Shown here: one piece after another, positions 1 through 64,000 of the stretch
Position numbering within the stretch: position 1 is the first letter of the stretch
How the letters are laid out: each line of letters opens with the position of its first letter
Source of the DNA: Terracoccus sp. 273MFTsu3.1
Lineage (GTDB): Bacteria > Actinomycetota > Actinomycetes > Actinomycetales > Dermatophilaceae
Direction: 5' to 3'
NCBI RefSeq assembly: GCF_000383675.1
Contig: NZ_KB911824.1
Span: forward strand, 248,001-312,000
DNA: 64,000 nt
Notes under the pieces: generated by a model
Databases searched by the model: none
Told to the model about the DNA's origin: nothing
Seen by the model: the letters and a program-made list of their open reading frames with translations, nothing else
Translations under genes and position numbers: made by a program

Positions 1-104
1 CGCCGACGACATGCCCGACGAGGCGGTCGGGATCCGAGCGGGCCGACCGTCGCGGGTGGAGGATGAACGGGTCGGACACCGCTGCTCCGCGCGAGAGGAC
101 TGCC

Positions 105-1490
105 ATGGCCATCCCGAGTCCTGGGTACTCGATCACCGTCCGGGTCGAGGTGCCGGCCGCCGCCAACGCGACCGCGGCCCTCACGACCGCCGTCTCGTCC
201 ACCGGCGGAGCCCTCACGGCGCTCGACGTCGCCGAGAGCCGCACCGACCGGCTCGTCGTCGACGTCACGTGCGACACGCGGGACGAGGCGCACGGTCACC
301 TCATCACCGAGGCGATCGCCGCGATCCCGGGCGCGGTCGTCCGCAAGGTCAGCGACCAGACGTTCCTGCTCCATCTCGGCGGCAAGATCGAGGTGAACCC
401 GAAGGTGCCCCTCAAGCACCGCGACGACCTGTCGCGCGCGTACACGCCGGGAGTCGCTCGCATCTGTCAGGCGATCGTCGACCACCCGGAGGACGCCCGC
501 CGACTCACCGTCAAGCGCAACACCGTCGCCGTCGTCACCGACGGCTCGGCCGTCCTGGGACTGGGCAACATCGGCCCGCTCGCGGCCCTCCCGGTCATGG
601 AGGGCAAGGCCGCGCTCTTCAAGCAGTTCGGGGGCGTGGACGCCTGGCCGGTCTGCCTCGACACCCAGGACCCCGACGCGATCGTCGAGATCGTGCGCGC
701 AATCGCCCCGGTCTACGGCGGCATCAACCTCGAGGACATCTCTGCCCCAAGGTGTTTCGAGATCGAGTCACGCCTGCGTGAGCTCCTCGACATCCCCGTC
801 TTCCACGATGACCAGCACGGCACCGCGATCGTCGTCCTCGCTGCGCTGAAGAACGCCCTGCGCGTCGTCAACAAGTCCATGGACGACGTGCACATCGTCG
901 TCTCCGGCGTCGGCGCCGCGGGTCATGCGATCATCCGTCTCCTGCTCACCCAGGGCGCCCGCAACATCATCGCCTGCGGTCGCACGGGTGCGGTCCACAA
1001 CGGCAACGAGGGCATGGAGCCCTTCCGGCAGTGGATCGCCGACCACACCAACACCGGTCACCGGAGCGGCACCCTCAAGGAGGTCCTCGTCGGTGCGGAC
1101 GTCTTCATCGGCGTGTCGGCGCCGGACCTGCTGACGGGTGACGACATCGCCCTCATGGCTCCTGACGCGATCGTCTTCGCCCTCGCCAACCCCGTGCCCG
1201 AGGTCGACCCGATCGCCGCGAGCGAGCACGCCGCTGTCGTCGCGACGGGCCGCTCGGACCACCCGAACCAGATCAACAACGTCCTCGTCTTCCCGGGTTT
1301 CTTCCGCGGGCTGCTCGATGCCGGCGTCTCCGACATCACGGACGCCATGATGGTCGCCGCGGCGAGCGCGATCGCCGACTCGGTCGAGCCGGGCGAGATC
1401 AACCCGAGCTTCATCATCCCCAGCGTCTTCGACGCGAGCGTCGCGCCGGCGGTCGCCGCAGCGGTGTGCCGGGTGGCCGGCACCCGCTGA
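105..1490 (+). CDS. NAD(P)-dependent malic enzyme with N-terminal ACT domain
   Basis: Oxidatively decarboxylates L-malate to pyruvate and CO2 with NAD(P)H production, in the cytoplasm. The 461-residue protein has an ACT-like regulatory domain at about residues 9-80, then the malic-enzyme catalytic domain with the YTPGVA motif (Tyr113) and the conserved [10 protein letters not shown] segment (Lys168), then a Rossmann NAD domain with GVGAAG at 268-273. The ATG at 105 is preferred over an in-frame ATG at 63 because GAGAGGA lies just upstream and the ACT domain begins right after it. It ends 12 bases before a convergent gene. The ACT domain suggests allosteric control by a small molecule, ligand unknown. 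The family call is firm; NAD versus NADP is not decidable here. Confidence 0.93.
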
Positions 1491-1502
1491 ACGGACCGAG
1501 AT

Positions 1503-1910
1503 TCAGGCGGCGCGTCGGCGCTGCGAGCCGGCGCGGACGACAGAGCCCTCGGAGACGACGTCGTCGCTGTCGACGCGGACGCCGTCCCAGACGCGAGCGT
1601 TGGCGCCGATCTTGGCGCGTGCGCCGACCCGGGCATCGCGCCCGATGACGGCGCCGGGCGCCACGTGTGCCGTGGTGCCGATGCTGGCTCCGGCGTGGAC
1701 GATCGCACCGCGGTCGATCCAGGCGCCGGTCGCGATGCGGGCTCCTGCGCCGACGACCGCGCCGCGGTCGACGTAGGCGTTCTCGGCGACGTAGGCCGCG
1801 GGGTCGACGTGGGCGTGCGACTCGACGAAACCGCCACCGTTGTCGTGGCGGGCGTAGCGCAGCACGGTTCCGTTGTCCTCTTCGAACTCCTCGTACTTCC
1901 TTCGCCTCAT
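1503..1910 (-). CDS. Hexapeptide-repeat (left-handed beta-helix) protein
   Basis: A 135-residue protein. From about residue 30 onward it is a run of six-residue turns such as VVGAGA, RIATGA, WIDRGA, IVHAGA and SIGTTA, the signature of a left-handed parallel beta-helix. Such proteins include acyltransferases and gamma-carbonic anhydrases, but the histidines of a carbonic anhydrase and an acyl-acceptor motif are not obvious, so substrate and reaction stay open. The ATG at 1910 has a GAAGGGGG ribosome site; a longer frame to 1970 lacks one. A GGAAT-N18-GTT promoter at 1969-1994 suggests control by a SigH/SigR-type sigma factor. The gene converges on the malic enzyme gene with only 12 bases between stops. 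Confidence 0.8.
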   Translation of the reverse strand: MRRRKYEEFEEDNGTVLRYARHDNGGGFVESHAHVDPAAYVAENAYVDRGAVVGAGARIATGAWIDRGAIVHAGASIGTTAHVAPGAVIGRDARVGARAKIGANARVWDGVRVDSDDVVSEGSVVRAGSQRRRAA

Positions 1911-1968
1911 GGTGCACCCCCTTCGGGTCGTGCGTGGACCGGGCGTCCACGCGGGCCTCACGGTGGTC

Positions 1969-1995
1969 AACGTTCAAGTGAACATGAAGATTCCG
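1969..1995 (-). promoter_or_regulatory. Candidate SigH/SigR-type ECF promoter
   Basis: Read on the minus strand: CGGAAT, exactly 18 bases, then GTT. This matches the GGAAT-N18-GTT consensus of thiol-oxidative/heat stress sigma factors (SigR of Streptomyces, SigH of Mycobacterium). It lies about 60 bases upstream of the hexapeptide gene start. The same spaced motif precedes the PAC2 gene and the DUF1232 gene in this window. Confidence 0.55.
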
Positions 1996-2133
1996 GTGAG
2001 GTGATGAGTGGTTTCTACCCGCCCAACGCACGGGCCAACCGTGCGGTTCCATCGGCTGGGACGACGCCGGGACGACGCCGGGACGACCCACGGGATGACG
2101 GGTCGGTGACCGCGTCGAGGCATGACGACGGGG

Positions 2134-2167
2134 CCGTATGCCGTCACCTCGGGGTGGCGGCATACGG
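2134..2167 (-). terminator. Hairpin built from an inverted GTATGCC pair
   Basis: A 15-bp stem with one mismatch (T opposite G), CCGTATGCCGTCACC against GGTGGCGGCATACGG, around a four-base loop. It lies 40 bases past the stop of the DUF4242 gene, with no T-tract. The two arms carry the window's over-represented 7-mer in opposite orientation. Confidence 0.7.
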
Positions 2168-2207
2168 CTGTCTCGTCGTGTGGTCGGCGGTGGTGCGGGT
2201 GGGGCGG

Positions 2208-6313: not shown

Positions 6314-6353
6314 GTATGCCGCCCAGCCGGTTTCGCGAGGCTGGGCGGCACAC
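6314..6353. terminator. Bidirectional terminator hairpin
   Basis: An 11-bp perfect GC core (6318-6328 with 6339-6349), extended by GTAT against ACAC with one mismatch, around a 10-base loop. It lies between the convergent aldo/keto reductase and secreted-protein genes. One arm carries GTATGCC, the other a degenerate GGCACAC. Confidence 0.75.
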
Positions 6354-6379: not shown

Positions 6380-8320
6380 CTACGGCGTGAGCTTCGTCAG
6401 GCGCGTGGACCAGTTGCCGAGAGAGGTCCGCGTGCCGCCGCAGCTGCCGATCGGAGGAGTCAGGTACTGCGCCAGGGTGCAGGTCTGGGCGATGTACTCC
6501 GACGCGATCCAGATGGACCGGCCGTCGGTGACGGCCGCCCCGTAGTCGCCCCAACGGGTGCGGATCGGGGTGCCGACGAAGGCCTTGTAGCTGGTGAAGC
6601 CGTCCGCCGGGCCGACGCCCTCGCCCACGATGTGGATCGGGCCGACTGCTCCGCTCGACGAGATCGGTGCGTAGCCCGCGCTCGGGTAGTGGTCGCGTCC
6701 GACGACGGTGAAGGCGATGGCGCCCTGACCGGTGGTCAGCATCGTGAGGGCCGGGTAGGTCAGGTTGTTGCCCGCGAGGGCCAGGTAGCCCTGCTTCTTG
6801 ATGTTGCCGCCGACCTTGCCCGCCCCGTTGATCTTCGGCTCCACCGAGAACCAGGCGATGCCGGCCCGCAGCTCGCCGTTGACCCGCACCGCGGTGTCGA
6901 GCGAGCCCCAGAGGACGCCGTTCGTGAACCACGTCTGCTGCATGCGGGTGTCGTTGGAGTCGAGGTGCGAGATGACCTCGTCGTGCGCCGGCTCGGGCGG
7001 GTCGAAGAAGAGCTGCCAGCACCCGGGACCGAACGGGGTCGCGATCGTCGTGTCGTTGATGCACTGGCCGAGCGGGAAGTCGCCGGCCTTCTGGTCGGCC
7101 TTCGGCGGGAAGACGTACGTCTCGCTGTTGACCAGCTTGTTCGTGACCGCCAGCGCCGGGGTGGCCGCGTCGAGCGATGCGGTGTTGGTCAGCGCCCACA
7201 GGCCGATGCGCCGCGCGGTCCCGGTGGGGTTGCCCGTCTCGGAGCCGTCACCGGCGGCCGAGCTGAGCAGGTACTCGCTGCCGTTGGCGGCGCTCTCGTA
7301 CTGGCCCGCGGGTGAGGTCGCCGGCCACACGGTGAAGCCTGGCGTGCCGGCCAGGTCGAGGTTCGGCACCAGGGTCACGCGGACCGCTGCCGGGTGGGTG
7401 GCGAGCTGCGCCTTCGAGAACGCGAAGACCTGGGCGGCGTTGAAGTTCGGGCCGAAGAGGTCATACTCGTTGGTCGTGATGTAGATGCCGTTGGCGTCCC
7501 CGCCGATGTGCGGGTAGTCCTGGAAGCACGGGCCGGGTGTGACGCCGTCGGTCGTGCAGCCGTGGTTTGGTGTGCCTTCCGTGCCGTCGTTCTGGGCAGG
7601 CACCGAGTAGATGGTCCAGGTGCCCGTCGGGTTGCTCGTGTTGGAGACGGCCACGTCGATGGTGTTCCGCCCGTTGAAGTCACCGTTCCCGTCCACGTGC
7701 AGCGTCGTGATGGCCACGACGAAGCGCTGGAAGTCGGGGTCGTAGTGGCATACCGGGTCGATGACGTTGGGCCCGACGACGCCGGTCGTCCGGTCGATGG
7801 CCGCGGGGTAGCCGAAGAAGGTGTTGAGGTCCTGGACGCCGGTGAGGGCAGCGGCGTTCGAGTCGTAGACCCGCAGCACGCTGTTGACCGACTCGACGGT
7901 GAAGCCGTTACCGACGCACAGGGCCTGGTCCGGCGGTTCGAGCGAGAACTGGTTGCCGCCGTTCGCGAGCCGCTGGTCGCGGTGGTTGAGGCCCTGGATG
8001 CTGGCCTGGACCGCCGGGTTCGTCGCGGCGACGGCGCTGGACGCCACCACGGGCGCCTCGAGCGGGTGCTTGGGGAAGATGCCGTGCTTGAAGTTCGGGT
8101 CGGGGCGGGTGGACGGGACGCCATCCTGCTCGTCGTCGGGTCCGGCTCTGAGCTCGGGCTGCTGGAGCCCGTCGGCGCCGGTGCCGAGGCTGCGGATACT
8201 GGTCGTGCCAGAGGACGTGATCTGGCGGGTGTCAGAAGGGGCGGCGTTCGCGGCTCCTGGCAGACTCAGCAGCGCTGCGGCGATGGCCGCGGCTCCGCTG
8301 GTGGCGATGATCTTTCGCAT
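6380..8320 (-). CDS. Secreted protein of unknown function, probable beta-propeller
   Basis: A 646-residue protein with a clear Sec signal (MRKIIATSGAAAIAAALLS, cleavage near ANAA). The rest has repeated blade-like segments rich in Gly, Asp, Thr and aromatics (DPVCHYDPDFQRF, DYPHIGGDANGIYI, HIVGEGVGPADG), suggesting an extracellular all-beta or propeller fold. I recognise no catalytic motif and assign no function. Start ATG 8320 has GGAGGTG upstream and opens directly into the signal peptide; a longer frame to 8410 does not. Pairs of cysteines (CVGN, CHYD, CTTDGVTPGPC) may form disulfides. Single gene, ending at the hairpin shared with the convergent aldo/keto reductase gene. Confidence 0.75.
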   Translation of the reverse strand: MRKIIATSGAAAIAAALLSLPGAANAAPSDTRQITSSGTTSIRSLGTGADGLQQPELRAGPDDEQDGVPSTRPDPNFKHGIFPKHPLEAPVVASSAVAATNPAVQASIQGLNHRDQRLANGGNQFSLEPPDQALCVGNGFTVESVNSVLRVYDSNAAALTGVQDLNTFFGYPAAIDRTTGVVGPNVIDPVCHYDPDFQRFVVAITTLHVDGNGDFNGRNTIDVAVSNTSNPTGTWTIYSVPAQNDGTEGTPNHGCTTDGVTPGPCFQDYPHIGGDANGIYITTNEYDLFGPNFNAAQVFAFSKAQLATHPAAVRVTLVPNLDLAGTPGFTVWPATSPAGQYESAANGSEYLLSSAAGDGSETGNPTGTARRIGLWALTNTASLDAATPALAVTNKLVNSETYVFPPKADQKAGDFPLGQCINDTTIATPFGPGCWQLFFDPPEPAHDEVISHLDSNDTRMQQTWFTNGVLWGSLDTAVRVNGELRAGIAWFSVEPKINGAGKVGGNIKKQGYLALAGNNLTYPALTMLTTGQGAIAFTVVGRDHYPSAGYAPISSSGAVGPIHIVGEGVGPADGFTSYKAFVGTPIRTRWGDYGAAVTDGRSIWIASEYIAQTCTLAQYLTPPIGSCGGTRTSLGNWSTRLTKLTP

Positions 8321-12610: not shown

Positions 12611-14029
12611 ATGGACGTCGACCTGGACCAGCTCTACGCTCGCGCGGCTGCCGAAGGTGCTCGACACCGCGCCACCGTCGCAGACCGGCCGGTGGCGGCA
12701 TCACCCGACCGTGCGGCAATGGCGGCCGCGTTCGGCGGGCCACTACCCGCGACGCGGACCGACCCCAGCGTCGTCGTCGACGATCTGATCACCGCCGCGC
12801 GCCCCGGTCTCGTCGGCACCGTCGGTCCGCGCTTCTTCGGCTTCGTCATCGGGGGAGCCTCACCGGCAGCCACGGCCGCCGACCTGCTCGCCGCCGGCTG
12901 GGACCAGTGCGCCTACAACGAGGTCCTCTCACCGGCCGCGGCGGCCGCCGAACGGGCGGCCGGAGGCTGGGCGAAGCACCTGCTGGGCCTGCCCGAGGCC
13001 GCTTCGGTCGGCTTCGTCACCGGCGCTCAGGCCGCGAACACCGTGGGCCTCGCCGTCGGACGGCAGCGCGTGCTCGCGGACGTCGGGTGGGACGTCGCGC
13101 GGGACGGTCTCTTCGGCGCTCCCCGGATCGCTGTGGTCGCGAGCGAGGAGCGGCACGCCACGATCGACCGGGCCGCTCGGCTGCTCGGGTTCGGCACGGG
13201 CAGCATCGAGCCCGTGGCCGCCACCCCGCAGGGCGCCATCGACGTCGGCCATCTCCGAACCACCCTCGAGTCCGTCGGCGAACGGCCGGTCATCGTGTGC
13301 CTTCAGGCTGGCAACGTCAACACCGGGGCGTGCGACGACCTCAGGGCCGCGACGACGGTGGCGCACGAGCACGGCGCGTGGGTCCACGTCGACGGTGCCT
13401 TCGGACTCTGGGCGGCCGCCAGCCCCCGGACCGCTCATCTCGTCGACGGGGTCGAGCTGGCCGACTCGTGGGGCACGGACGCCCACAAGTGGCTCAATGT
13501 CCCCTATGACTGCGGACTCGCCTTCTGTGCCGACGCGGACCTGCACGCGGCAACGATGTCGTACGCGGCGGCATACCTCACCGGGTCGGGCTCGGGGGCC
13601 GACCACGTCCTCGGCGACCTGACGCCCGAGTCCTCCAGGCGGGCAAGGGGTTTCGCGGTCTGGGCCGCCCTGCGCGAGCTCGGCACCGAGGGTGTGGCCG
13701 AGCTCGTCGACCGGTCCTGCGCCCTGGCGACGCGCATGGCCGAGCGTCTCGCAGCCGGCGGTGCCACCGTCCACAACGCCGTCGTGCTCAACCAGGTCCT
13801 CGTCAGCATCGGCGATCCCGGACGCACGGACGCCATCGTCGAGGCCGTCCAGCGCGACGGCACGTGCTGGGTCGGTGCGACGACGTGGCACGGCCAGCGA
13901 CTCATCCGCGTCTCGGTGTCCAACGCCACGACCGGCGAGCACGACGTCGACATCTCGGCCGATGCCATCCTGCGTGTCGCGGGAGCCGTGTCCTCAGCGG
14001 ACGTCCAGCAGAATCCCAGCCCTTCCTGA
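12611..14029 (+). CDS. Group II pyridoxal-dependent decarboxylase-like enzyme
   Basis: A 472-residue PLP enzyme of the aromatic-L-amino-acid/glutamate decarboxylase family. The Schiff-base lysine is Lys293 in TDAHKWLNVPYDCG, and the cofactor-binding region VHVDGAFGLWA is present about 30 residues before it. An N-terminal helical arm (RAAAEGARH) and the EVLSPAAAAAERAAGGW region fit the decarboxylase fold. The amino-acid substrate cannot be told; an aspartate aminotransferase-fold lyase of another specificity is possible. ATG 12611 has GGAGGA about ten bases upstream; a frame open to 12500 runs into the intergenic region. It is divergent from the SOS-controlled HNH gene. Confidence 0.85.
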   Translation: MDVDLDQLYARAAAEGARHRATVADRPVAASPDRAAMAAAFGGPLPATRTDPSVVVDDLITAARPGLVGTVGPRFFGFVIGGASPAATAADLLAAGWDQCAYNEVLSPAAAAAERAAGGWAKHLLGLPEAASVGFVTGAQAANTVGLAVGRQRVLADVGWDVARDGLFGAPRIAVVASEERHATIDRAARLLGFGTGSIEPVAATPQGAIDVGHLRTTLESVGERPVIVCLQAGNVNTGACDDLRAATTVAHEHGAWVHVDGAFGLWAAASPRTAHLVDGVELADSWGTDAHKWLNVPYDCGLAFCADADLHAATMSYAAAYLTGSGSGADHVLGDLTPESSRRARGFAVWAALRELGTEGVAELVDRSCALATRMAERLAAGGATVHNAVVLNQVLVSIGDPGRTDAIVEAVQRDGTCWVGATTWHGQRLIRVSVSNATTGEHDVDISADAILRVAGAVSSADVQQNPSPS

Positions 14030-24764: not shown

Positions 24765-24793
24765 GCGGCATACGCCATCGGTGACGGCTGCCC

Positions 24794-43975: not shown

Positions 43976-44039
43976 AGCCGTTCGTGCGCGTTCCGGGCAA
44001 AATGATTCGCGGGGTGTCGAGGGTGTCGGTGCCGGACGG

Positions 44040-44045
44040 CATACT
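44040..44045 (+). promoter_or_regulatory. -10 box, leaderless start of nuclease-helicase
   Basis: CATACT, seven bases before the ATG at 44053. It overlaps the GGCATAC 7-mer at 44038. Confidence 0.45.
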
Positions 44046-47949: not shown

Positions 47950-49395
47950 TCAGGCCCCGTGGGCGGCGACGTCCCAGAGCCGTCCCTCCCCGCGGATGCC
48001 CGGCAGGGCCTCCCGGATCGACCGCTCGGCGAGCTCGGGAGCGACACCGAGGTCGACGGCATACCGCAGCGCGACCGCCGGGGTGCGCTGGACGCCCTGA
48101 CGGCAGTGGACGAGCACCCGCTTGCCCTCGGCACGGAACTGTCGCAGCGCCGACGAGGCGTCGTCGAGGACGAAGTCGAGGTGAGGGTTGCTCTCCTCCT
48201 GCTCCTCGTCGTTGATCCAGAACTCGATGTGGTCGCGTGCCGTCATCCCGGCTGCGGGGATGTCCTCCAGGCCGAGCGCGCAGAGCGAGACGATCGCCTG
48301 CACGTCGAGCTCGGGCACGCGTCCGAGGTCGCTGATGGTGCCCAGCACGATGTCAGGGTCGATGGGGTGCGGGATGCCCAGCGTGGGAATCCTCTCGTCA
48401 CCCATCGAGACGACCGACGGCCACTCGCCGACGCGACGTCCGCCCGCCGAGGTCGACACGGCGAGCTCGACGAGGTCGTGGGCGCGGAGCCCCGGCCACC
48501 CGTGCACCATGCGACGCCACTGGGTCGGCACCGCGGACGCTCCGTAGCGGGCGCCGAGCAGCGAGCCCGCGATGGCGGCGACCGTGTCGGTGTCGTGTCC
48601 CGCCCGGACGGCGGCCTGCAGCCCCCGCTGGAGGTGCATCGCCGAGCCGTCGCCGCGGTCGGTCGTCGTGATCGCGGCCCAGGCGTCCTGCAGCGCCGTC
48701 ACCGTGAAGCCGTTGTTGCCGAACTGGCCCGGCTCGGCGCCGGTCGCCGCCTCGATCCAGTCGCCCCAGCGTCCGACGTGCGCGGCGCTCACGAGGTCGA
48801 GACCGGCCGCGAGGTCGAGACGCCCCTCCGTGACGGCGACCCGGATCGCCTCCGACCACAGCACGGCCGAGTCGCCCGCGAGCGGGTCGGCGTGGGTGAG
48901 CAGGGCGATGGCGCGGGCCGCGCGGGCCGTCGCGTCCCGGTCGTCGAGGGCCGACAGGCCGACGATGGGTGTCCGCATCAGCGCGCCGTTGCCGGCGGTC
49001 AGCCCGGTGCGGGCGTGCAGCGCCTCGCTCGCCCGGGTCAGGCGTTGGTGCGAGCGTCCGGTCAGCTCCTTCGCCTCGGTCAGCACCGAGTGTGTCTGGA
49101 TGCCGACGTCCGTGGCGCCGCCGTCGAGCCACGCGGTGAACGCGTCGGCCACGCCGTCGAGGCCCTCGGGCGAGGTGAGGTCGATGCCCTGGGCGGCGAT
49201 GCGCGCCACGCAGAGCGTCATCTGGGTGTCATCGCTCCACTCGCCGGGCTCGTACGGCCCGAGGCCACCACCCTTCATGACGGCCTCGCCGACCGGGGGC
49301 GCCGCCATCTCGTAGGGCACGCCGAGGGCGTCGCCGCAGGCCTCGCCGAGCAGCACCCCCGCCGCGCGGTCGACGGCGATGGGGCGGATCAACAC
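47950..49395 (-). CDS. ADP-ribosylglycohydrolase fused to dual-specificity phosphatase
   Basis: A 481-residue two-enzyme fusion. Residues about 8-310 are a DraG/ARH-type ADP-ribosylhydrolase: GEACGDALGVPYE, the metal-binding EWSDDTQM, and GHDTDTVAAIAGSLLGARYG near residue 265. Residues about 350-481 are a dual-specificity phosphatase-like domain with the HCxxGxxRT loop, VLVHCRQGVQRTPAV, and an Asp-rich general-acid region before it. It could remove ADP-ribose from proteins or nucleic acid and then dephosphorylate a product; the joint reaction is inference. GTG 49395 has GAAGGAG upstream. The helical hypothetical gene follows it. Confidence 0.88.
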   Translation of the reverse strand: MLIRPIAVDRAAGVLLGEACGDALGVPYEMAAPPVGEAVMKGGGLGPYEPGEWSDDTQMTLCVARIAAQGIDLTSPEGLDGVADAFTAWLDGGATDVGIQTHSVLTEAKELTGRSHQRLTRASEALHARTGLTAGNGALMRTPIVGLSALDDRDATARAARAIALLTHADPLAGDSAVLWSEAIRVAVTEGRLDLAAGLDLVSAAHVGRWGDWIEAATGAEPGQFGNNGFTVTALQDAWAAITTTDRGDGSAMHLQRGLQAAVRAGHDTDTVAAIAGSLLGARYGASAVPTQWRRMVHGWPGLRAHDLVELAVSTSAGGRRVGEWPSVVSMGDERIPTLGIPHPIDPDIVLGTISDLGRVPELDVQAIVSLCALGLEDIPAAGMTARDHIEFWINDEEQEESNPHLDFVLDDASSALRQFRAEGKRVLVHCRQGVQRTPAVALRYAVDLGVAPELAERSIREALPGIRGEGRLWDVAAHGA

Positions 49396-51680: not shown

Positions 51681-52658
51681 TCAGCGGCGCTGGATGTCGA
51701 AGTACGGGCTGATGTAGCACGTGGCGTAGCCCTGTCCCTGCTGCGCCGTGACGACGATCCCGTCGACGAGCACCCGGCACGACACCGCGCCGCGGACCCC
51801 TGACCCGGTCGGGTCGCTCGTGCGCACCCTGAGGCTGAAGTAGTCGTTGCTCGTCGCGCCGGGTCTGACCGGCACCTCGAAGGCGAGGGGCGCGGTCTGC
51901 GCGGGGTAGTCGTGGCGCTGGTGCGTCGCATCCGAGAGGGACACCTCGATGCGGGCGCCCGTCTCGGCATACGCCTCGAAGCGGATGGTCCGGGCGTTCG
52001 AAGGTACGGGGGTCACGGGAACGGCCGGGACCGGGATGAGCGTGGGGGGCGAGGTCATGACGCCGCGGGTCGGGGTGGTCGGCCTCGCGGTCGCTCCGGG
52101 GACCGACCGGGTCGGGCTGGCGCCGGGCACCTGGGGTGTGATCGTCGGGACCGGGAACGTGCGGGTCACGGCGGGTCGGTTGCGGGTGACGCTGATCGCG
52201 GGTCGGGCGACCGGGTCGAGGTCGTCGACGAGGCTCGTCGACGCCCAGAACCCGAGCGGGACGAGCAGCCCGACGACGATCGCCACGACGTGCCACGCCT
52301 GGAGACGCCCGCCGAGCGAGCGTCCCGCGGCCCCCGGGAGGGTCACGGTGCGCAGCCGCTCGGTCACGGGGGGTGAGGTGGGTGCGGCCGGCGGGGGTGG
52401 TGGCGACGCGTGGTCGGCCCCGACCTTCTGCGGCACCCAGCTCGTCGCCGGGGGTGGCTCGAGGCCGAAGGTCGTGTCGTATGCCGTCGCGCCCTCCCGC
52501 GTCCCGGGCTCGGTGGGGAGGTCGGCCGGGTCGGCGGGGCCGGAGGGGTCGCGACCGCCGGCACCGGTCGACCCGTCACGCAGGTCGGTCGGGTCCGGGC
52601 CGACGTCTCCCGTCGTGTCACGGGTCGGGTCGGGCTCGTGCGGCGGAGTCTCAGACAC
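51681..52658 (-). CDS. Membrane-anchored protein with MmpS-like C-terminal domain
   Basis: A 325-residue protein: a Pro/Asp/Thr-rich cytoplasmic N-terminus, one transmembrane helix (WHVVAIVVGLLVPLGFWAS, residues about 122-140), a Pro/Thr linker outside, then a compact beta domain ending VSCRVLVDGIVVTAQQGQGYATCYIS. That two-cysteine pattern resembles mycobacterial MmpS accessory proteins of membrane lipid transporters, but no MmpL gene is nearby. Start GTG 52658 follows GAGGGG. The neighbouring gene at 52723 encodes a protein with a similar beginning (MSxxxHxPDP) and end, so the two are probably paralogues. Confidence 0.68.
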   Translation of the reverse strand: MSETPPHEPDPTRDTTGDVGPDPTDLRDGSTGAGGRDPSGPADPADLPTEPGTREGATAYDTTFGLEPPPATSWVPQKVGADHASPPPPPAAPTSPPVTERLRTVTLPGAAGRSLGGRLQAWHVVAIVVGLLVPLGFWASTSLVDDLDPVARPAISVTRNRPAVTRTFPVPTITPQVPGASPTRSVPGATARPTTPTRGVMTSPPTLIPVPAVPVTPVPSNARTIRFEAYAETGARIEVSLSDATHQRHDYPAQTAPLAFEVPVRPGATSNDYFSLRVRTSDPTGSGVRGAVSCRVLVDGIVVTAQQGQGYATCYISPYFDIQRR

Positions 52659-53665: not shown

Positions 53666-54367
53666 TCAGTCGGCGCCGGGCCGCCAGCCACCGACCCGGA
53701 TCTCGGTGCCGTCGACGATGTCGACGGGCGAGGTCGGGTCCAGCGGGACGGCCACCGGGGACGACCCGTCGCTCACGACGATCGTCATCGACGCGGTCTG
53801 CTCGACGCCGGCGGCGGCGAGGTCGCCCCGCCACCCGAGGTCGACATGGGCGATGTCACCCGGATCGAGGGGCACCGTCCTCGCACTCGAGGTCTCCGCG
53901 TCGTGCATGCGACCACGAGGGTTGGCGAACACGGTTCCGGAGGGTCCTCGAGCGGACACCACGGCATACCCGGTGAGCACGCACGGCACCCGGCTGGAGT
54001 TGGTGACCCGCACCCGCATCTGCCGATAGCCCAGTGCGGGATCGACCGGGCTCGCCGTGACGTCGAGCTGGCTCGGCTGGCACGGCCCGTCCGGGAAGAG
54101 CGGCGCCGCAGGGTCAGCCGGCCCCGTGGACGGACCGGCGTCGCGGCTGGGCGGCAGCACGAGCGGAGGCTCGGTGGGCAGGGCCGTCGGCGTCTGCTCG
54201 GTCGGGGCCGCGATGGCCGGCGGCGGGTCCGCATCGATGGTGGAGTCAGGTGGCGGGCTCGCGCAGCCACCGACGAGGAGGGCGAGGAGCGCCGGGGCTG
54301 CGACCGCGGACACGATGGAGCCGGCCGGCGTCCTGCCCGCCTCCCGGTGCACCCCTGACCTCCTCAT
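53666..54367 (-). CDS. DUF4232-domain lipoprotein
   Basis: A 233-residue lipoprotein with the lipobox LLVGGC, a long Pro/Thr linker, and a DUF4232 immunoglobulin-like domain from about residue 92 (CQPSQLDVTASPVDPALGY, RVTNSSRVPCVLTGYAVVSARG), with the usual disulfide-forming cysteine pair. Such proteins are common cell-surface lipoproteins of actinobacteria without a known role. The start is fixed by TAGCGT six bases upstream (leaderless). It is divergent from hrpA. Confidence 0.82.
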   Translation of the reverse strand: MRRSGVHREAGRTPAGSIVSAVAAPALLALLVGGCASPPPDSTIDADPPPAIAAPTEQTPTALPTEPPLVLPPSRDAGPSTGPADPAAPLFPDGPCQPSQLDVTASPVDPALGYRQMRVRVTNSSRVPCVLTGYAVVSARGPSGTVFANPRGRMHDAETSSARTVPLDPGDIAHVDLGWRGDLAAAGVEQTASMTIVVSDGSSPVAVPLDPTSPVDIVDGTEIRVGGWRPGAD

Positions 54368-54504: not shown

Positions 54505-57500
54505 ATGTCCGACGAGCCTGCGAACGCACCCGCGCGCTCGCGGCCACCCCGTCGACGCGGACGTCGCCGACCGTCAGGCGCCGAGCCGTCTCCGGCCCAG
54601 ACCTCTTCGGCCCACACCGCGCCCTCGGACCCGGCGGCTCCATCGGCGCCCACAGCCGCCCAGGGCCCGACCGGTCGTCCGAGCCAGCGCGCCAGGGCCA
54701 CGGAGCGTGACCGGCGCGACCTCGGTCGCCCGCCGACGGCGCGCCGTCAGGGCGGCCGCACCCTGACGCCCGAGCAGCGGGAAGCCCGACGCGCCGCCAG
54801 GGCGGCGACCCTTCCGCCCATCACCTATCCCGAGCACCTGCCGGTCGTCGAGCGCCGCGACGACATCGCCGCGGCCGTCCGGGACCACCAGGTCGTCGTC
54901 ATCGCCGGTGAGACGGGATCGGGCAAGACGACCCAGATCCCGAAGATCTGCCTCGAGCTCGGTCGCGGCCTCGACGGCGTCATCGGGCACACCCAACCGC
55001 GTCGTATCGCGGCGCGAGCCGTCGCCGAGCGGCTCTCCGAGGAGCTCGCCGTCGAGCTGGGCACCGCTGTCGGCTACCAGGTGCGCTTCACCGACCAGAG
55101 CAGCCGCGACACGCTCGTCAAGGTCATGACCGACGGCATCCTGCTCGCCGAGATGCAGCGTGACCGAGAGCTGCGCCGCTACGACACGATCATCATCGAC
55201 GAGGCCCACGAGCGCAGCCTCAACATCGACTTCATCCTCGGCTACCTCAAGCAGCTGCTGCCACGACGCCCTGACCTCAAGGTCATCATCACCTCGGCGA
55301 CGATCGACCCGCAGCGCTTCGCCGAGCACTTCGCCGACCCGGCGACGGGCGAGCCGGCCCCGATCATCGAGGTCTCGGGCCGCACGTTCCCGGTCGAGAT
55401 CCGCTACCGACCCCTCGTCGACCCCGACCGCCCCGACGCGGAGGAGCGCGACATGGTGACGGGCGTCTGCGAGGCGGTCGAGGAGCTGTGGACCGAGCGC
55501 CACTCGGGCACGAGCAGCGACATCCTCGTCTTCTTCTCCGGCGAGCGAGAGATCCGCGACGCCGCCGACGCGCTCAACGGCATGAAGCTGCCCGTCACCG
55601 AGGTCGTCCCGCTCTACGGCCGGCTCTCGGCCGCCGAGCAGCACCGCGTCTTCTCACCGCACACCGGCCGCCGGATCGTGCTGGCCACCAACGTCGCCGA
55701 GACCTCGCTGACCGTCCCGGGCATCCGCTACGTCATCGACACCGGGACGGCGCGCATCAGCCGCTACAGCCAGCGCACCAAGGTCCAGCGCCTGCCCATC
55801 GAACCGGTCAGCCAGGCGTCCGCCAACCAGCGGTCCGGACGCTGCGGGCGCGTCTCCGACGGCATCGCCATCCGCCTCTACTCCGAGGACGACTACGACA
55901 GTCGCCCCGAGTTCACCGACCCCGAGATCCTGCGCACCAACCTCGCCTCGGTCATCCTCCAGATGACCAGCCTCGGTCTCGGCGACATCGCACGCTTCCC
56001 CTTCGTCGACCCGCCGGACAGCCGCCAGATCACCGACGGCGTCCGGCTCCTCGAGGAGCTCCAGGCCTTCGCACCCGAGGACGACGAGCCCGCCCCGGCC
56101 CGCGGGAGGCGACGTCCGGGACGCCGCCTCACGGCATACGGCCGCACCATCGCGACGCTGCCGATCGACCCGCGGCACGCTCGCATGGTCATCGAGGCCG
56201 ACCAGCGCGGCGTGCTCCGCGAGGTGCTCGTCATCGTCGCCGCCCTCTCGATCCAGGACCCGCGGGAGCGACCGCAGGACAAGCAGGAGCTCGCGAACGC
56301 CTCGCACAAGCGCTTCGCCGACGAGACGAGCGACTTCGTCACGTGGCTCAACCTCTGGGCCTACCTCAGGGAGCAGCAGCACGAGCTGAGCAGCAGCGCC
56401 TTCCGCCGCCTCTGCAAGGCCGAGTTCCTCCACTACCTGCGCATCCGTGAGTGGCAGGACCTCCACAGCCAGGTCAAGCAGGCCGCCAAGCAGGCCGGTC
56501 TCGACCTGAGCCGCGGGAGCACCCACGTGGCCCAGGGCGAGATCGACGTCGACGCGATCCACCAGTCGCTGCTCGCCGGACTCCTCTCGCACGTCGGCGT
56601 CCGGGACGAGCAGAAGCGGGAGTATGCCGGTGCGCGCGGCACGCGATTCGGCATCAGTCCCGGGTCGGCGCTCTTCCGCAAGCAGCCGCAGTTCGTCATG
56701 GCCGAGGAGCTCGTCGAGACGAGCCGCCTGTGGGCGCGAGTCAACGCCCGCATCGACCCCGTCTGGGCCGAGCAGCTCGGCGAGCACCTCGTCAAGCGGC
56801 AGTACTCCGAACCGCGGTGGTCGGGCAAACGGGGCTCGGCGGTCGCGACCGAGCGGGTCACGCTCTACGGCGTGCCGCTCGTCGTCGGCCGCGTCGTCGG
56901 CCTCGGCCGCATCGACCCCGAGCTCGCGCGCGACCTCTTCATCCGGCACGCTCTGGTCGAGGGCGACTGGCACACCGAGCACGCCTTCCTGCGCGAGAAC
57001 GCCGCCCTCGTCGAGCGCCTCGGCGAGCTCGAGGCCCGCACCCGGCGCCGCGACATCGTCGTCGACGACAGCACGTTGATCGCGTTCTACGACAAGCGGA
57101 TTCCTGCCGACGTCGTCTCGGGACGTCACTTCGATACGTGGTGGAGGAAGACGCGCCGTCAGACACCGGACCTGCTCACCTTCACCGAGGAGCTGCTCCT
57201 GCGCGAGAGCGCGGGCAGCATCGCCGACGAGGACCACCCGACGACGTGGACCCAGGGCGAGAACGTCCTGTCGGTGACCTACCAGTTCGAGCCGGGATCG
57301 GCACAGGACGGCGTGACCGTGCACATCCCCGTCGAGCGCCTCAACCAGGTGACTCCCGACGGCTTCGACTGGCAGGTCCCGGGCTTCCGCGAGGAGCTCG
57401 TCACCGCACTGATCCGCAGCCTTCCCAAGGGGATCCGTCGCAACCTCGTGCCGGCGCCCGACCACGCCCGCGCCGTCCTACCCGAGCTCGACCCGACGTC

Positions 57501-59731: not shown

Positions 59732-61483
59732 TCAGGCCTTGGCCTCGCTCCAGCGGCGGACGATCGAGGTGTCGGCGACGAAGCGGACCTCGTCGGTGCC
59801 GGCCCACGTCCGCGCCGCGCTCGTCAGGGTGCCCTCGACGGCGGCAGCCGCGGCCGTGGCGTGCTGCTCGGGCACGTGGACGAGGAGCTCGTCGTGCAGG
59901 CACAGCACGATCTGGCCGCCGAGCGGGCGCACCGCGTGGCGCACCGTCGCCGCCCACGCCTTGAAGAGCTCGGCCGCGGAGCCCTGGATGATGGCGTTGC
60001 GCGCGTAGCGTCCCCGCGCTCCGTCCGCGCCCGTCGCCGAGAACTCGGCGCTCCCGGAGGGCTCGGGCGCACCCGGCTCGAGGGCGGGCACGGGCACCCC
60101 GCCGAAGCGGATGAGCCGGCCGCCCCACGTCCGAACCGGGCGGCGGGCGACCCCGTCGGCGTACGCCCGGTCGAGCAGGCTCATGGCCACGGGATAGGCG
60201 CGCTCGAGGTCCTTGAGGGCCTCGCCCGCAGCCCCGGAGCGCTGGCCGTACATGGCTGCCAGCACGGCGACCTTGGCGCGAGGTCGGTCGGCGCCCAGCT
60301 TGGCGGCGACGGGAGCGTAGAGGTCGTCGGCACGGGTGGCCTCGGCGAACGCCCGGTCGGCGCTGACGACCGCGAGCACGCGCGGCTCGATCTGGCCGAG
60401 GTCGGCGCGGACGAAGACGTGGCCGGGGGCAGCGCAGATGGCCGGGCGCAGGGGAGCCGGGAGGTTGTGGAGCCCGTTCTGCGCGGTCATGCGCCCGGCC
60501 GCCCCGTCGCACGCCGTCCACCCGCCACGGAGCCGGTCGTCGGCGCCGACGTGGTCGTCGAGCCAGCGGTAGCCGTAGGTCGTCGCGATCCGCTCGTCCT
60601 TGCGCCATCGCAGCAGCGCGTCGACGAGTGGGTGGGTGTGCCGGTAGGGCTCGAGCACCCAGGCGCGAGTGTTGGGGACGTCGACACCGACGGAGAGCAG
60701 CAGGTCGCGCACCTGGCCGGGGTTGCGCAGGTCGGTGCGCTCCCGGCCCGGGGCGAGGCGCAGCACGGCGGCGTCGCGCTCGGCCCGGATGCGTGCCGCG
60801 TCGGCCTCGTCGCGGGGTCGCGCCCCGGCGGACGCCGCGATGAGGTCCTCGGCGGCGGGCCGGTCGACGGGGAGCCCGTCGCGCTCGAGCTCGAGGCAGA
60901 GCACGGCCGCGGCGGACTCGGACCACACGGTGCGCTCGAGGCGGCTCGCGTGGACGCCGCCGATGCGCACGAGGGCCTCGAGCTGCGCCGACCGGCAGTC
61001 GAGGGCGAGCACCGCCAGCTCGCGCAGCCGAGCGTCCTCGGTCGCCCACGCGAGGGCATCCGCACGGAGGTGGCCGGCATCCGTCAGCAGGGACACGTCC
61101 TCGCCGGCGACGACGTCGAAGAGGTCGCCGTCGAAGCCGCTCAGCCGCGGCGCGCGTGGTGCGGGCACGTCGGCCTCGTCGAGCCCGCGGCACCCGGCCA
61201 GGACATGACCGGGCGTCGCCCACCAGCCGCCGTGGACGATGCGGTGGGCCTCGGCGAGGTCCCACGTGCGGGAGACGTCGACACCGGCACCGACGACGGG
61301 CCGCAGCGTCGAGGCGGCCGACCACACGACCCACCGTGGACCGAGCCGCGCCGTCGTGTCGACGAACCGGCGCACCACGTCGCCGAGCGGCCACGGCTCG
61401 TCGACGTCCGGCCCGACGGCATACGCCCCTCGAGGGCCCACCACGAGCGCGACGAGCGGTGGACCGGAAGCCTTGTCAGTCAA
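59732..61483 (-). CDS. DNA polymerase I-like protein (bifunctional 3'-5' exonuclease/polymerase type)
   Basis: A 583-residue family-A polymerase of the short actinobacterial type. Motif A is RADLGQIEPR with Asp361, motif B is RAKVAVLAAMYGQR, motif C is CLHDELLVHV with Asp531 and Glu532. The N-terminal 200 residues take the place of the exonuclease domain but its acidic residues are hard to find, so exonuclease activity is doubtful. The start is probably TTG 61483, which overlaps the MalY-type gene by eight bases and implies coupling; no clear ribosome site is seen. The role is probably accessory repair synthesis. Confidence 0.85.
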   Translation of the reverse strand: MTDKASGPPLVALVVGPRGAYAVGPDVDEPWPLGDVVRRFVDTTARLGPRWVVWSAASTLRPVVGAGVDVSRTWDLAEAHRIVHGGWWATPGHVLAGCRGLDEADVPAPRAPRLSGFDGDLFDVVAGEDVSLLTDAGHLRADALAWATEDARLRELAVLALDCRSAQLEALVRIGGVHASRLERTVWSESAAAVLCLELERDGLPVDRPAAEDLIAASAGARPRDEADAARIRAERDAAVLRLAPGRERTDLRNPGQVRDLLLSVGVDVPNTRAWVLEPYRHTHPLVDALLRWRKDERIATTYGYRWLDDHVGADDRLRGGWTACDGAAGRMTAQNGLHNLPAPLRPAICAAPGHVFVRADLGQIEPRVLAVVSADRAFAEATRADDLYAPVAAKLGADRPRAKVAVLAAMYGQRSGAAGEALKDLERAYPVAMSLLDRAYADGVARRPVRTWGGRLIRFGGVPVPALEPGAPEPSGSAEFSATGADGARGRYARNAIIQGSAAELFKAWAATVRHAVRPLGGQIVLCLHDELLVHVPEQHATAAAAAVEGTLTSAARTWAGTDEVRFVADTSIVRRWSEAKA

Positions 61484-62642
61484 GGCAGCCCGCGATCCGC
61501 TCGATGGCCTCGCGGAGGATGTCGGGGGAGGTCGCGTAGTTGAGCCTCGCGTGCCCCGCGCCGCCGGAGCCGAAGATCGGACCGGGGGAGAGTGCGACGC
61601 GTGCGCGGCGCAGCACCTCACCCGCGGGGTCGTCGCCCAGGCCCAGCCCGGAGAGGTCGAGCCAGGCGAGGTAGGTCGCCTCGGGCACGACGAGACGGGC
61701 TCCGGGCAGCTGTGCTTCGACGAGCTCGGCGAGGAGACGCCGGTTGGAGTCGAGCTCGCGCACGAGGCGGTGCACCCACTCGCGCCCGTCGCGGAAGGCA
61801 GCCGTCTGCGCGATGACCCCCAGGTGGCTCGCCCCGAACGTGACCCATGGGTGGAGGCGGCGCACGTCGTGGACGGCGTCGGCCCCCGGGACGATGATCG
61901 CGGCCTTGAGCCCCGCGAGGTTCCAGGCCTTGGAGGCCGACGTCACGGTGATGCCGCGCTCGGCGCCCGCCACGGCGAGGTAGGGCGTGAAGGTGCTGCT
62001 CGGCAGGACGAGCGGGCCGTGGATCTCGTCGGAGATGACTCGGACGCCGTGCTCGTCGGCGACCCGCGCGAGGGCCGCCAGCTCGTCGGGCGTGTGCACC
62101 GTGCCGGTCGGGTTGTGCGGGTTGGAGAGCAGGTAGACCGCGCGGTCGCCTCCGGCGGTCGCGTCGGCGAACCCGTCGGCGAGTCGGTCGAGGTCGAGCC
62201 GGTGGTCGGGTCCGAGCGGCGCCTCGACGACCCGCCGTCCGCACGCCTCGATCACCTCGTAGAAGGCGTTGTAGACGGGCGGGCTCACGATCACCGGGCC
62301 ACCGGGGTCGGTGAGGAGCCCGAGCAGGTGGGTCACACCGGTCAGCACGTCGGCCACGCGGGTCGTGCTGTCGTGGTCGAAGCGCCAGCCCCACTCCGCG
62401 TCGGCGAACGCGGCGACCTCGGCGGCATACTCCTGCGTCAGGGCGTAGCCCGTGTCGCCCCGGGCCACGGCGGCGCTCACGGCGTCCACGACGGCGGTGC
62501 ACGGCGCGCAGTCCATCTCGGCGATCCACATCGGGATGACGTCGGGCTCGTAGCGTCCCCACTTGACCGACGTGCGGTCGCGCCGCAGATCGGCCAGCGG
62601 GACGTCGAAGATCGTCGCGCCGTCCGCGTGCCTCTCACCCAT
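61476..62642 (-). CDS. MalY/PatB-type PLP-dependent C-S lyase or aminotransferase
   Basis: A 388-residue fold-type I PLP enzyme. The Schiff-base lysine is Lys238 in TSASKAWNLAGLK; the MWIAEMDCAPC and DTGYALTQEY segments and SNPHNPTGTVH are typical of the MalY/PatB cystathionine beta-lyase group. It may cleave cystathionine or a related C-S substrate; aminotransferase activity is also possible. Start ATG 62642 lies seven bases after TAGGGT (leaderless); a frame to 63080 has no support. Its end overlaps the start of the pol I-like gene. Confidence 0.88.
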   Translation of the reverse strand: MGERHADGATIFDVPLADLRRDRTSVKWGRYEPDVIPMWIAEMDCAPCTAVVDAVSAAVARGDTGYALTQEYAAEVAAFADAEWGWRFDHDSTTRVADVLTGVTHLLGLLTDPGGPVIVSPPVYNAFYEVIEACGRRVVEAPLGPDHRLDLDRLADGFADATAGGDRAVYLLSNPHNPTGTVHTPDELAALARVADEHGVRVISDEIHGPLVLPSSTFTPYLAVAGAERGITVTSASKAWNLAGLKAAIIVPGADAVHDVRRLHPWVTFGASHLGVIAQTAAFRDGREWVHRLVRELDSNRRLLAELVEAQLPGARLVVPEATYLAWLDLSGLGLGDDPAGEVLRRARVALSPGPIFGSGGAGHARLNYATSPDILREAIERIAGCLD

Positions 62643-62649
62643 GGGAGCG

Positions 62650-62655
62650 ACCCTA
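62650..62655 (-). promoter_or_regulatory. -10 box, leaderless start of MalY-type gene
   Basis: TAGGGT on the minus strand, seven bases before the ATG at 62642. Confidence 0.6.
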
Positions 62656-62736
62656 CGAGAGCGGGGCGACGTCGTCTCCCGCGGTCCCCGGCCGGCCCGA
62701 CTGGGTACGAGGGTGCCACGAGCGACCCGGGCGGCA

Positions 62737-62742
62737 TACGGT
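62737..62742 (+). promoter_or_regulatory. -10 box of EcsC gene, overlapping the GGCATAC motif
   Basis: TACGGT within GGCATACGGT. It gives a leader of about 55 bases before GTG 62802. Confidence 0.4.
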
Positions 62743-62801
62743 GTCGTCGGCGGCGAACCGACAGCCGCCACACAGGGACGACGGACGAAGGGGTGGAGCC
62801 G

Positions 62802-63557
62802 GTGGGCATCTTGGGTTACGGCAGGGACGAGACCGTCGAGGCATCGGACGCGACCGCGGTGAGGCTGCGCACGGCGAAGGACGCCGGCGCGCTCGAGCGG
62901 GCTGCCATGCCTGCCGAGGGAGGTCTCTCGGGAGCCGCGACCCGACTCGTCGAGCGTCTCCTCGACGTCGGCATCGACGGCAAGGGACCGTTCGACCCGG
63001 CCCACGAGATCGCCGCCAAGGCGCTCAAGCACGCCAGGGGCGACAGCGAGCAGGCGCTGCGGATCATCGTCCGCGACCACCGGCAGCTCGGCGCCATCGG
63101 CGGCTTCGCCACCGGCCTGGGCGGCTTCTTCACGATGCCCCTGTCCCTGCCGGCCAACGTGCTCGAGTTCTACCTGCTGGCCACCCGCATGACGGCGGCG
63201 ACGGCCAAGGTGCGCGGCTACGACATCGACCAGCCCGAGATCCGCTCGGCGATCCTGCTGACCCTCGCCGGCGCCGACAGCGACGACCTTCTCAAGAAGG
63301 CCGGTCTGCAGGCGGCCGGCGGCAAGCTGTCGTCCGTCGCCTTCGACCGGTTGCCTGCCCCGGCGCTCATGGTCCTCAACAAGGCCGTCGGCTTCCGCCT
63401 GCTCGGGCGCATCGGACAGGGGACCTTCGCCCGCCTCGGGCGCCTGGTGCCCGTCGTCGGTGGCCTCATCGGCGCTGCGGTCGACGTCTACATGCTGAAC
63501 CGCATCGGCAAGCAGGCGGCCAAGGAGTTCCCACCCGTCGAGACCTTCGGTCGCTGA
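62802..63557 (+). CDS. EcsC-family protein
   Basis: A 251-residue EcsC-family protein. Family features are GGFFTMPLSLPANVLEFYLLA, YDIDQPEIRSAILLTLAGAD, VLNKAVGFRLLGRIGQ and the amphipathic LVPVVGGLIGAAVDVYML. EcsC proteins are membrane-associated and of unknown function in actinobacteria; in Bacillus the name comes from an ABC transporter locus but no ABC genes occur here. GTG 62802 has AAGGGG upstream; earlier in-frame starts run through the promoter. Confidence 0.82.
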   Translation: MGILGYGRDETVEASDATAVRLRTAKDAGALERAAMPAEGGLSGAATRLVERLLDVGIDGKGPFDPAHEIAAKALKHARGDSEQALRIIVRDHRQLGAIGGFATGLGGFFTMPLSLPANVLEFYLLATRMTAATAKVRGYDIDQPEIRSAILLTLAGADSDDLLKKAGLQAAGGKLSSVAFDRLPAPALMVLNKAVGFRLLGRIGQGTFARLGRLVPVVGGLIGAAVDVYMLNRIGKQAAKEFPPVETFGR

Positions 63558-63624
63558 GCGACCGGCTGGGAAGGCTCACCGTGGGGAGCACGCAGATCGC
63601 GCTCGGCCGTCGCCGTCCGGGCCG

Positions 63625-63651
63625 GGGAATCGTGCGCGACGCCCGTTCGTT
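63625..63651 (+). promoter_or_regulatory. Candidate SigH/SigR-type ECF promoter, near-leaderless
   Basis: GGGAAT, exactly 18 bases, GTT, with the ATG of the DUF1232 gene nine bases after GTT, so the transcript would begin at or next to the start codon. Confidence 0.6.
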
Positions 63652-63660
63652 GGGCCGGGC

Positions 63661-64000
63661 ATGAAGCCCGCATCCCGGATCAAGATGGCCGCGACCGTCG
63701 CGTCGGTCGTGCGCGCCTCGACGCGCCCCGGCGCGCCCAGCCTGCCGGAGCGGCTGTCCGCCGTGCCGCGCCTGGTGCGCGCCACCGTGGACGGGACGTA
63801 TGCCGGCACGACCCTCAAGCGGCTCGGGCTCGTCGCTGGGGCGGTCGCCTATGTCGCCTCGCCCGTCGACCTGCTGCCCGAGGCGGTCCTGCCGGTCATC
63901 GGAGCGGCCGACGACGCCGTCGTCATCTCGTGGGCGGTCAAGGCCTTCTTCGAGGAGACCGAGCGCTTCATCGCCTGGGAGGTCGGTCAGGGTCTGCACC
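63661..64000 (+). CDS. DUF1232 (YkvA-like) protein, truncated by window edge
   Basis: The first 113 residues of a protein that runs off the window. After a basic N-terminus (MKPASRIKMAATVASVVRAS) comes the DUF1232 core, AYVASPVDLLPEAVLPVIG, then ADDAVVISWAVKAFFEE. DUF1232 proteins are small membrane-associated proteins of unknown function. It begins about 100 bases after EcsC, on the same strand, under its own SigH/SigR-type promoter. ATG 63661 is chosen because the promoter places the transcription start there; there is no clear ribosome site. Confidence 0.8.
   Translation, partial: MKPASRIKMAATVASVVRASTRPGAPSLPERLSAVPRLVRATVDGTYAGTTLKRLGLVAGAVAYVASPVDLLPEAVLPVIGAADDAVVISWAVKAFFEETERFIAWEVGQGLH

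Follow-up and report, generated by a model that had tools for sequence, protein, structure and literature searches.

A dialect-forming eight-base word in Terrabacter and its relatives as a probable DNA uptake sequence

Why does one short word recur so often in a stretch of actinobacterial DNA? We addressed this question in 64,000 nucleotides (the window) of Terracoccus sp. 273MFTsu3.1 (assembly GCF_000383675.1, contig NZ_KB911824.1, positions 248,001 to 312,000), for which a preliminary description had listed 35 copies of the 7-mer GTATGCC on either strand and suggested a DNA-uptake-like or other whole-genome signal. We found that the word is longer, GTATGCCG, and it is probably an independently evolved DNA uptake-sequence system of Terrabacter and many members of its family. 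Judging by its ComEC protein, the host is itself a Terrabacter (76-88% identity to the six named Terrabacter among its ComEC relatives), a genus that the NCBI taxonomy places within Intrasporangiaceae.

The unit and its genome-wide excess

The 35 copies (19 forward and 16 reverse) were all exactly where they had been listed. The excess is larger than had been thought, since 100 dinucleotide shuffles of the window gave a mean of 1.64 copies and a maximum of 5, and an order-2 Markov model predicted 2.2, where about six had been expected. In the whole genome (18 contigs, 4,938,734 bases), we counted 1184 + 1166 = 2350 copies of GTATGCC, approximately one per 2.1 kb, against 186 + 199 = 385 for the same word read backwards, a control that is imperfect in that family genomes lacking an excess still have a median 8-mer ratio of 2.1. 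Neither chance nor a cluster confined to the window fits these counts.

Detailed sampling covered about 8% of the host genome beyond the window, and 10-170 kb of each of the other genomes, mostly near comEC. In the 404 kb host sample (the window and 17 stretches of 20 kb), the top 8-mer was GTATGCCG, with 199 copies against 9.4 expected from an order-3 Markov model, and the eighth base was G at 95% of the GTATGCC sites. This G was present at 32 of the 35 window copies (the exceptions being those at 7747, 14634 and 44619), and hence the real unit is the eight-base GTATGCCG; the excess of the 7-mer stands, and the length first assigned to it does not. The base preceding GTATGCCG was C in 65% of cases, and positions 9 and 10 leaned towards T/C and C, so that the flanks are weakly biased. 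The word differs from its own reverse complement, and is thus non-palindromic. Its spacing was slightly more even than random (coefficient of variation 0.85). A second word, CAAGGGCAA/TTGCCCTTG, was also in excess in the host sample (L001-L017 and the window), with 21 copies against 0.8 expected.

Placement in coding and intergenic DNA

Within the 404 kb, 153 of the 209 copies were inside genes, in either direction. When synonymous codons were shuffled within genes, keeping the proteins and the codon use, 12.7 sense and 9.9 antisense copies were obtained, compared to the 89 and 61 seen, and the word is therefore well above expectation on a codon-aware basis as well. The genic copies used few reading frames, mainly Tyr-Ala and Ala-Tyr. 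In the context G-TAY-GCC, 82 of 137 tyrosine codons were TAT, whereas the sampled genes otherwise used it for 81 of 1985; half of all TAT codons of these genes fall within GTATGCCG.

The other 56 copies were intergenic, in 13% of the sample, giving 1.06 copies per kb against 0.44 in genes (2.4-fold), figures that are approximate because the gene caller was simple. In the window itself, where ten copies had been placed between genes, our gene calls gave 9 of 35; the statement that intergenic DNA makes up under a tenth of the window was correct (9.8%). The gaps between convergent genes were the densest, with 12 copies in 5.3 kb (p 0.01 versus tandem and divergent gaps). We observed that 36 of the 56 intergenic copies lay at most 100 nucleotides after a stop codon, compared to 28% of random intergenic places, while 19 of 56 lay at most 100 nucleotides before a start (control places 37%). 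Intergenic copies often adjoined hairpins: the 50 nucleotides from the word onward folded at -22.6 kcal/mol, against -17.1 for random intergenic places, and the word itself was paired no more than the control in these folds (0.45 versus 0.44). The sample contained four perfect inverted pairs of the word, of which two lie in the window.

DNA of low guanine-plus-cytosine (GC) content was nearly without the word. The four lowest-GC bins (GC below 0.67) held one copy in 16 kb, 12 kb of which is one island, against about 0.5 per kb elsewhere. This island (L003:4609-16482; GC 0.62) lacks the word altogether, carries genes that we take to be histidine-kinase-like and P-loop genes, and is probably acquired DNA.

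Copies in the window and their conservation

For comparison, the corresponding regions of five other Terrabacter genomes were aligned with the window, and 7-mers of equal A+T count served as the background. Genic words were kept in 89 of 106 cases, compared to 26311 of 47226 matched 7-mers (genic Fisher p 9e-10), and intergenic words in 25 of 27, compared to 1934 of 4445; in the reverse direction, 113 of the 134 aligned words of the relatives were also in the window. These counts are not independent, because the species pairs share ancestry. The copies of GTATGCCG are as follows, with the fraction kept given over the aligned genomes among the five.

2136..2143, + strand: intergenic; 5' arm of an inverted pair with 2158-2165; unalignable in relatives
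2158..2165, - strand: intergenic; 3' arm of the inverted pair with 2136-2143; unalignable in relatives
6314..6321, + strand: intergenic, convergent; an inverted repeat follows; unalignable in relatives
13569..13576, - strand: genic; kept 2/3
15960..15967, + strand: genic; kept 0/1 (changed)
17328..17335, + strand: genic, in gene 16897-17838 (presumably universal-stress-protein-like); kept 4/5
18544..18551, + strand: genic; kept 2/2
20214..20221, - strand: intergenic; kept 5/5
22402..22409, + strand: intergenic; kept 2/3
24766..24773, - strand: intergenic, then a hairpin; kept 4/4
25288..25295, + strand: genic, in gene 24842-25819, a paralogue of the 16897-17838 gene; kept 5/5
28530..28537, + strand: genic by the gene calls; kept 5/5
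34379..34386, - strand: intergenic; kept 4/5
35217..35224, - strand: genic; kept 5/5
35701..35708, + strand: genic; kept 5/5
38741..38748, + strand: genic; kept 5/5
39785..39792, + strand: intergenic, convergent; 5' arm of an inverted pair with 39812..39819; kept 5/5
39812..39819, - strand: intergenic; 3' arm of the inverted pair with 39785..39792; kept 5/5
43408..43415, + strand: genic; kept 4/5
44037..44044, - strand: genic; kept 5/5
44514..44521, + strand: genic; kept 5/5
46269..46276, + strand: genic; kept 3/5
48057..48064, - strand: genic; kept 5/5
51965..51972, - strand: genic; kept 3/4
52479..52486, + strand: genic; kept 3/3
53962..53969, - strand: genic; kept 1/2
56132..56139, - strand: genic; kept 5/5
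56622..56629, + strand: genic; kept 5/5
61417..61424, - strand: genic; kept 4/5
62423..62430, - strand: genic; kept 4/5
62732..62739, - strand: genic; kept 5/5
63798..63805, + strand: genic; kept 4/5

Three further copies of GTATGCC are without the eighth G, and are probably chance matches outside the system.

7747..7753, - strand: unalignable in relatives
14634..14640, + strand: kept 0/1
44619..44625, + strand: kept 0/5

The paralogous genes 16897-17838 and 24842-25819, both of which we take to be universal-stress-protein-like, carry the word at the corresponding place.

Distribution in the family

In a survey of 58 genomes (the host included), all eight others of the host genus were enriched in the word, and the remaining family was patchy. 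Among 17 genomes reached through named loci, strong enrichment was seen in all six Terrabacter, in the close relatives L020 and L022, and in Flexivirga caeni; Intrasporangium calvum was weakly enriched (1292 versus 714 for the control), and few copies were present in Piscicoccus intestinalis (115) and Arsenicicoccus piscis (83). Outside the family, the survey of 58 covered 22 genomes of the same order, none of which had more than 425 copies of GTATGCC or was clearly above its control.

We extended the count to a census of 186 family genomes, again with the host, in which a genome counted as enriched if it had 400 or more copies of GTATGCCG and a ratio to the control of 2.4 or higher, and as word-poor below 130 copies, cut-offs that we set ourselves. 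The word was enriched in 106 genomes, 65 were word-poor and 15 fell between. The ratio to the control among the 106 had a median of 11.9 and a maximum of 70; five of them with a ratio below 4 (G023, G079, G080, G083 and G106) are marginal, because the median for word-poor genomes is itself 2.1. In the genera g26, g52 and g69, enriched and word-poor species occur side by side.

One-base dialects

Some family members in which GTATGCCG is scarce use one-base variants of it instead. We observed 3816 copies of GGATGCCG in G024 (control 392) and 3949 in G034 (control 289); in most of the 58 genomes the ratio for this variant is about 1 to 4, with G009 (4.3), G011 (5.1), G019 (6.6) and G055 (8.4) in between. 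The variant GTATGACG reached 1954 copies in G035 (control 87) and 1557 in G011 (control 151), and in G011 it stands alongside GTATGCCG. In sampled stretches, GAATGCCG occurred 42 times in 60 kb of G020 (1.9 expected), beside 16 copies of GTATGCCG. Tentatively, we also regard as dialects GTATGCGG in G028 (9 versus 0.5 expected in a 20 kb stretch) and GTACGCCG in G031 (35 versus 6.3 expected in stretches of 80 kb).

In a tree of 36 ComEC proteins (a single protein, with 15 of 33 inner branches well supported and one row omitted), G024 and G034 are sisters nested in a GTATGCCG-using clade, G011 and G035 group with Flexivirga, and G020 lies within a clade of GTATGCCG users that includes the word-poor G009. 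As judged from this tree, the dialects fit the ComEC phylogeny.

Retention of the word depended on the dialect of the other genome. Copies of GTATGCCG were kept in 46 of 110 cases between genomes of the same dialect (DNA identity 0.75-0.80), and in 5 of 78 against genomes of the GGATGCCG dialect (DNA identity 0.76-0.79). The background retention, for 8-mers of equal A+T count, was 0.17-0.29, so that across dialects GTATGCCG is lost faster than average. Copies of GGATGCCG were kept in 10 of 34 cases within the dialect and 16 of 173 across. The p values of these comparisons are indicative only, because both directions of each pair were counted, and the same-dialect signal comes mostly from G029 (26/52 versus G000 and 12/20 versus G023). 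The contrast indicates that retention depends largely on the word that a genome reads, and not on local protein constraint. Conversion from one dialect to the other at the same position was rare (6/78 and 6/173), and new dialects thus mostly occupy new places.

Other words were over-represented in some genomes. Those of G082 and G103, both word-poor family members, are probably local repeats. In G148 (L240-L241), which is poor in GTATGCCG, CGAAGGGG/CCCCTTCG occurred 34 times in 40 kb (3.5 expected); no clear dialect was seen in the sampled stretches of G148 or of G145. The 9-mer CTGGCCGTA/TACGGCCAG, which is unrelated to the uptake-like word, occurred 19 times in G032 (L175-L177; 0.6 expected) and 9 times in G012 (L119-L120; 0.2 expected). 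Outside the family, a similar word was seen in G055, from another family of the order: GGATGCCG had 1548 copies in the whole genome (control 184), and CGGATGCC occurred 42 times in 60 kb (L166-L168; 6.4 expected).

Competence genes and a proposed mechanism

The host genome encodes ComEC and, beside it, a ComEA with SLBB and helix-hairpin-helix domains. Three ATPases of the T2SSE family were above the cut-off, and from their neighbours we take them to be of the Tad type. One Tad cluster holds a DUF4244 Flp pilin together with a small pilin-like gene, which had no Pfam match and is presumably TadE-like. We noticed neither a type IVa nor a com pilus operon in the host genome, though no specific search for one was made. 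The host thus has a predicted competence pilus (Tad type), ComEA and ComEC, a set that is not discriminating, being shared by non-users of the word.

In the 58 genomes, ComEC was present in 57 and the DUF4244 Flp pilin in 56, regardless of the word, so that the presence or absence of the machinery does not account for it. A ComEA-like sequence adjoined ComEC in 23 of 28 genomes, and some of the stretches of the other five end nearby. As the machinery is equally common in genomes without the word, its presence does not predict the word; something more specific, a receptor, would be needed. The Flp/Tad region was compared in 21 genomes (the host and 20 others, with the Flp gene matched in 16), and its layout was alike in users and non-users. 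As receptor candidates, the small pilin-like genes next to the Flp gene offer no more than a lead. In the word-poor G010 (L203), the DUF4244 Flp gene has two small pilin-like neighbours, and tadZABC is not adjacent. In Micrococcus luteus, also an actinobacterium, both tad clusters are required for transformation (PMC4322843).

We infer uptake as the role of the word, a receptor on the Tad pilus and recombination as the driving force. In such a system, GTATGCCG would label DNA as self for natural transformation. DNA carrying the word would be bound at the cell surface by a receptor, most likely one of the minor components of the Tad/Flp competence pilus or else a protein that partners ComEA; the bound DNA would be drawn through the wall, one strand would be let into the cell via ComEC, and this strand would be integrated by homologous recombination. 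Because fragments bearing the word would be taken up more often, recombination would keep spreading it, and would preserve it where coding and regulatory constraints permit. A drift in the specificity of the receptor would lead to the genome being re-marked with a new one-base dialect.

Alternative explanations

A DNA modification, restriction or repair enzyme that acts on the word with a bias could create or preserve it, the dialects being changes of specificity; HIP1 (highly iterated palindrome 1) of cyanobacteria and very-short-patch repair are the comparison cases. An enzyme with such a bias could yield the excess on both strands and the dialects, and one well-counted neighbour, GTCTGCCG, is indeed under expectation (22 versus 38.5). 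However, 16 of the 24 one-base neighbours of GTATGCCG were at 0.6-3 times expectation, with 3 lower and 5 higher (many of the counts being 4 or less), which disfavours a general consumption of near misses, and GTACGCCG, GGATGCCG and GAATGCCG were about two-fold in excess. Such a bias, if it affected DNA at large, would not lead one to expect a stronger excess between genes and after stop codons. The word is also not a palindrome, which sets aside a HIP1-like palindromic word. Since the neighbours are not generally depleted, and since low-GC DNA is nearly without the word (one copy in 16 kb, as given above), we consider this explanation unlikely.

A nucleoid-associated or regulatory protein that binds the word genome-wide would account for the conserved positions among Terrabacter and for the intergenic enrichment, and the dialects are compatible with a drifting DNA-binding domain. 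Against this, 153 of the 209 copies are genic and run in either direction, the intergenic copies favour the 3' ends of genes and not the starts (19/56 against the 37% control), and thousands of sites exceed the usual regulon. We find such a role improbable. The alternatives offered in the preliminary description (methylation, repair or a nucleoid site) are thus weakened, and its suggestion of an uptake-like or other whole-genome signal is supported. Of the two outcomes that it had named as refuting, a count near the model expectation (judged on a codon-aware basis in the 404 kb) and a confined local cluster, neither was obtained. Further support comes from the dialects, the dialect-dependent conservation, the inverted pairs, the enrichment after stop codons and the strand balance.

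Signals of chromosome maintenance, such as a Chi-like recombination stop or a segregation arrow like the KOPS (FtsK-orienting polar sequences), are likewise short, non-palindromic and frequent. Chi and KOPS are oriented along the replication arms. Whole-genome strand totals, near equal here (1184 and 1166) as had been described for the window, are blind to such orientation because the two arms cancel. In 13 regions of 50-180 kb, drawn from 10 genomes, the strands were without exception balanced (the smallest p being 0.19), which disfavours a strand-biased signal, and terminator-like inverted pairs are not expected of one. As no local orientation bias was seen, a signal of this kind is very unlikely.

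An origin of the excess as a side effect of protein repeats, codon habits or terminators is hardly credible: the genic frames are few and mostly Tyr-Ala or Ala-Tyr, and the intergenic copies are often beside hairpins, but synonymous shuffles that keep the protein and the codon use abolish the excess and so refute such an artefact as the main cause, TAT is rare except within the word, and similarly diverged genomes of another dialect have mostly lost the word.

The marks of GTATGCCG match the genomic signature of a DNA uptake sequence. Several points weigh against reading it as one. The same marks would also be expected from other processes that favour a word, for example where a site is modified or subject to biased repair. 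Transformation data for Terrabacter did not turn up, the literature not having been searched under that name. The word is patchy: 65 of the 186 family genomes are poor in it, and at least 12 of the family genomes inspected were without the word and without any obvious dialect (G010, G014, G016, G017, G018, G021, G022, G075, G114, G143, G167 and G206; for G143, G167, G206, G075 and G114, 20-49 kb were inspected in each). ComEC and the Flp pilin are just as common in such genomes, and the comparison of 21 Flp/Tad regions identified no receptor gene. Conservation within the dialect is uneven, since G033 kept 0 of 12 copies in four comparisons with G000 and G023. The low-GC count, which served as the test for depletion in foreign DNA, is small, at 16 kb with 12 kb in a single island. 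Phage TJE1 showed no clear excess of GTATGCCG (2 versus 0.9 expected), a result of little weight for a single phage without an assigned host dialect.

Comparison with known systems

Uptake sequences are known mainly from two Gram-negative families with type IV pili. The reader of the DNA uptake sequence (DUS) in Neisseriaceae is the minor pilin ComP; we saw no ComP here, and made no sequence search for it. In Pasteurellaceae, whose hosts are Gram-negative with type IV pili, the uptake signal sequence (USS) is unrelated to GTATGCCG, and the minor pilin ComN has reportedly been proposed as its receptor. HIP1, Chi and KOPS are, like GTATGCCG, highly iterated short genomic words, but HIP1 is palindromic and Chi and KOPS are strand-biased along the replication arms, and GTATGCCG showed neither property.

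The system described here resembles the Neisseriaceae DUS in its short word, its thousands of copies, its dialects that follow the phylogeny and the members that lack the word, and also in its inverted pairs, which in Neisseriaceae are associated with terminators (PMC3630211). It differs in its Gram-positive actinobacterial hosts of about 71% GC, in its 8-base word, and in having Tad/Flp in place of type IVa pili. With its usual flank, the word shares GCCGTC with the Neisseria DUS, spelled GCCGTCTGAA in PMC6370729. However, all Neisseriaceae DUS dialects have a CTG core in common (PMC3630211), and because GTATGCCG lacks it, we rejected the word as a Neisseriaceae DUS proper; its flanks are also weakly biased. 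With the Pasteurellaceae USS it shares a genome-wide presence on both strands, which in that family is linked to transformation; the same source names Neisseriaceae and Pasteurellaceae as the families with uptake sequences (PMC12616744). The host also resembles M. luteus in having ComEA/ComEC plus tad clusters, here known from the genes alone (PMC4322843). That transformation paper has no mention of "uptake sequence" or "sequence-specific", and PMC8467076 has none of "uptake sequence" or "uptake signal". We found no report of such a word in the open-licence literature on uptake sequences in actinobacteria (Intrasporangiaceae included) or Gram-positive bacteria, on Flp-pilus transformation or on DUS dialects, although a report in a subscription journal could exist.

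If the reading as an uptake sequence is true, it predicts natural competence in Terrabacter, Flexivirga and their relatives; natural transformation would be frequent and kin-selective in these bacteria, and a practical rule for transforming them would be that the DNA carry the matching word. The dialect switches inside one family could then serve to test whether uptake words serve sex or feeding, or are a by-product of receptor bias. We lean towards a family-wide, dialect-forming uptake system with its receptor on a Tad/Flp competence pilus, which would be a third origin besides those of Neisseriaceae and Pasteurellaceae. Such an origin, in Gram-positive bacteria with Tad pili, would mean that the preference for self-DNA evolves repeatedly, and independently of an outer membrane or of ComP.

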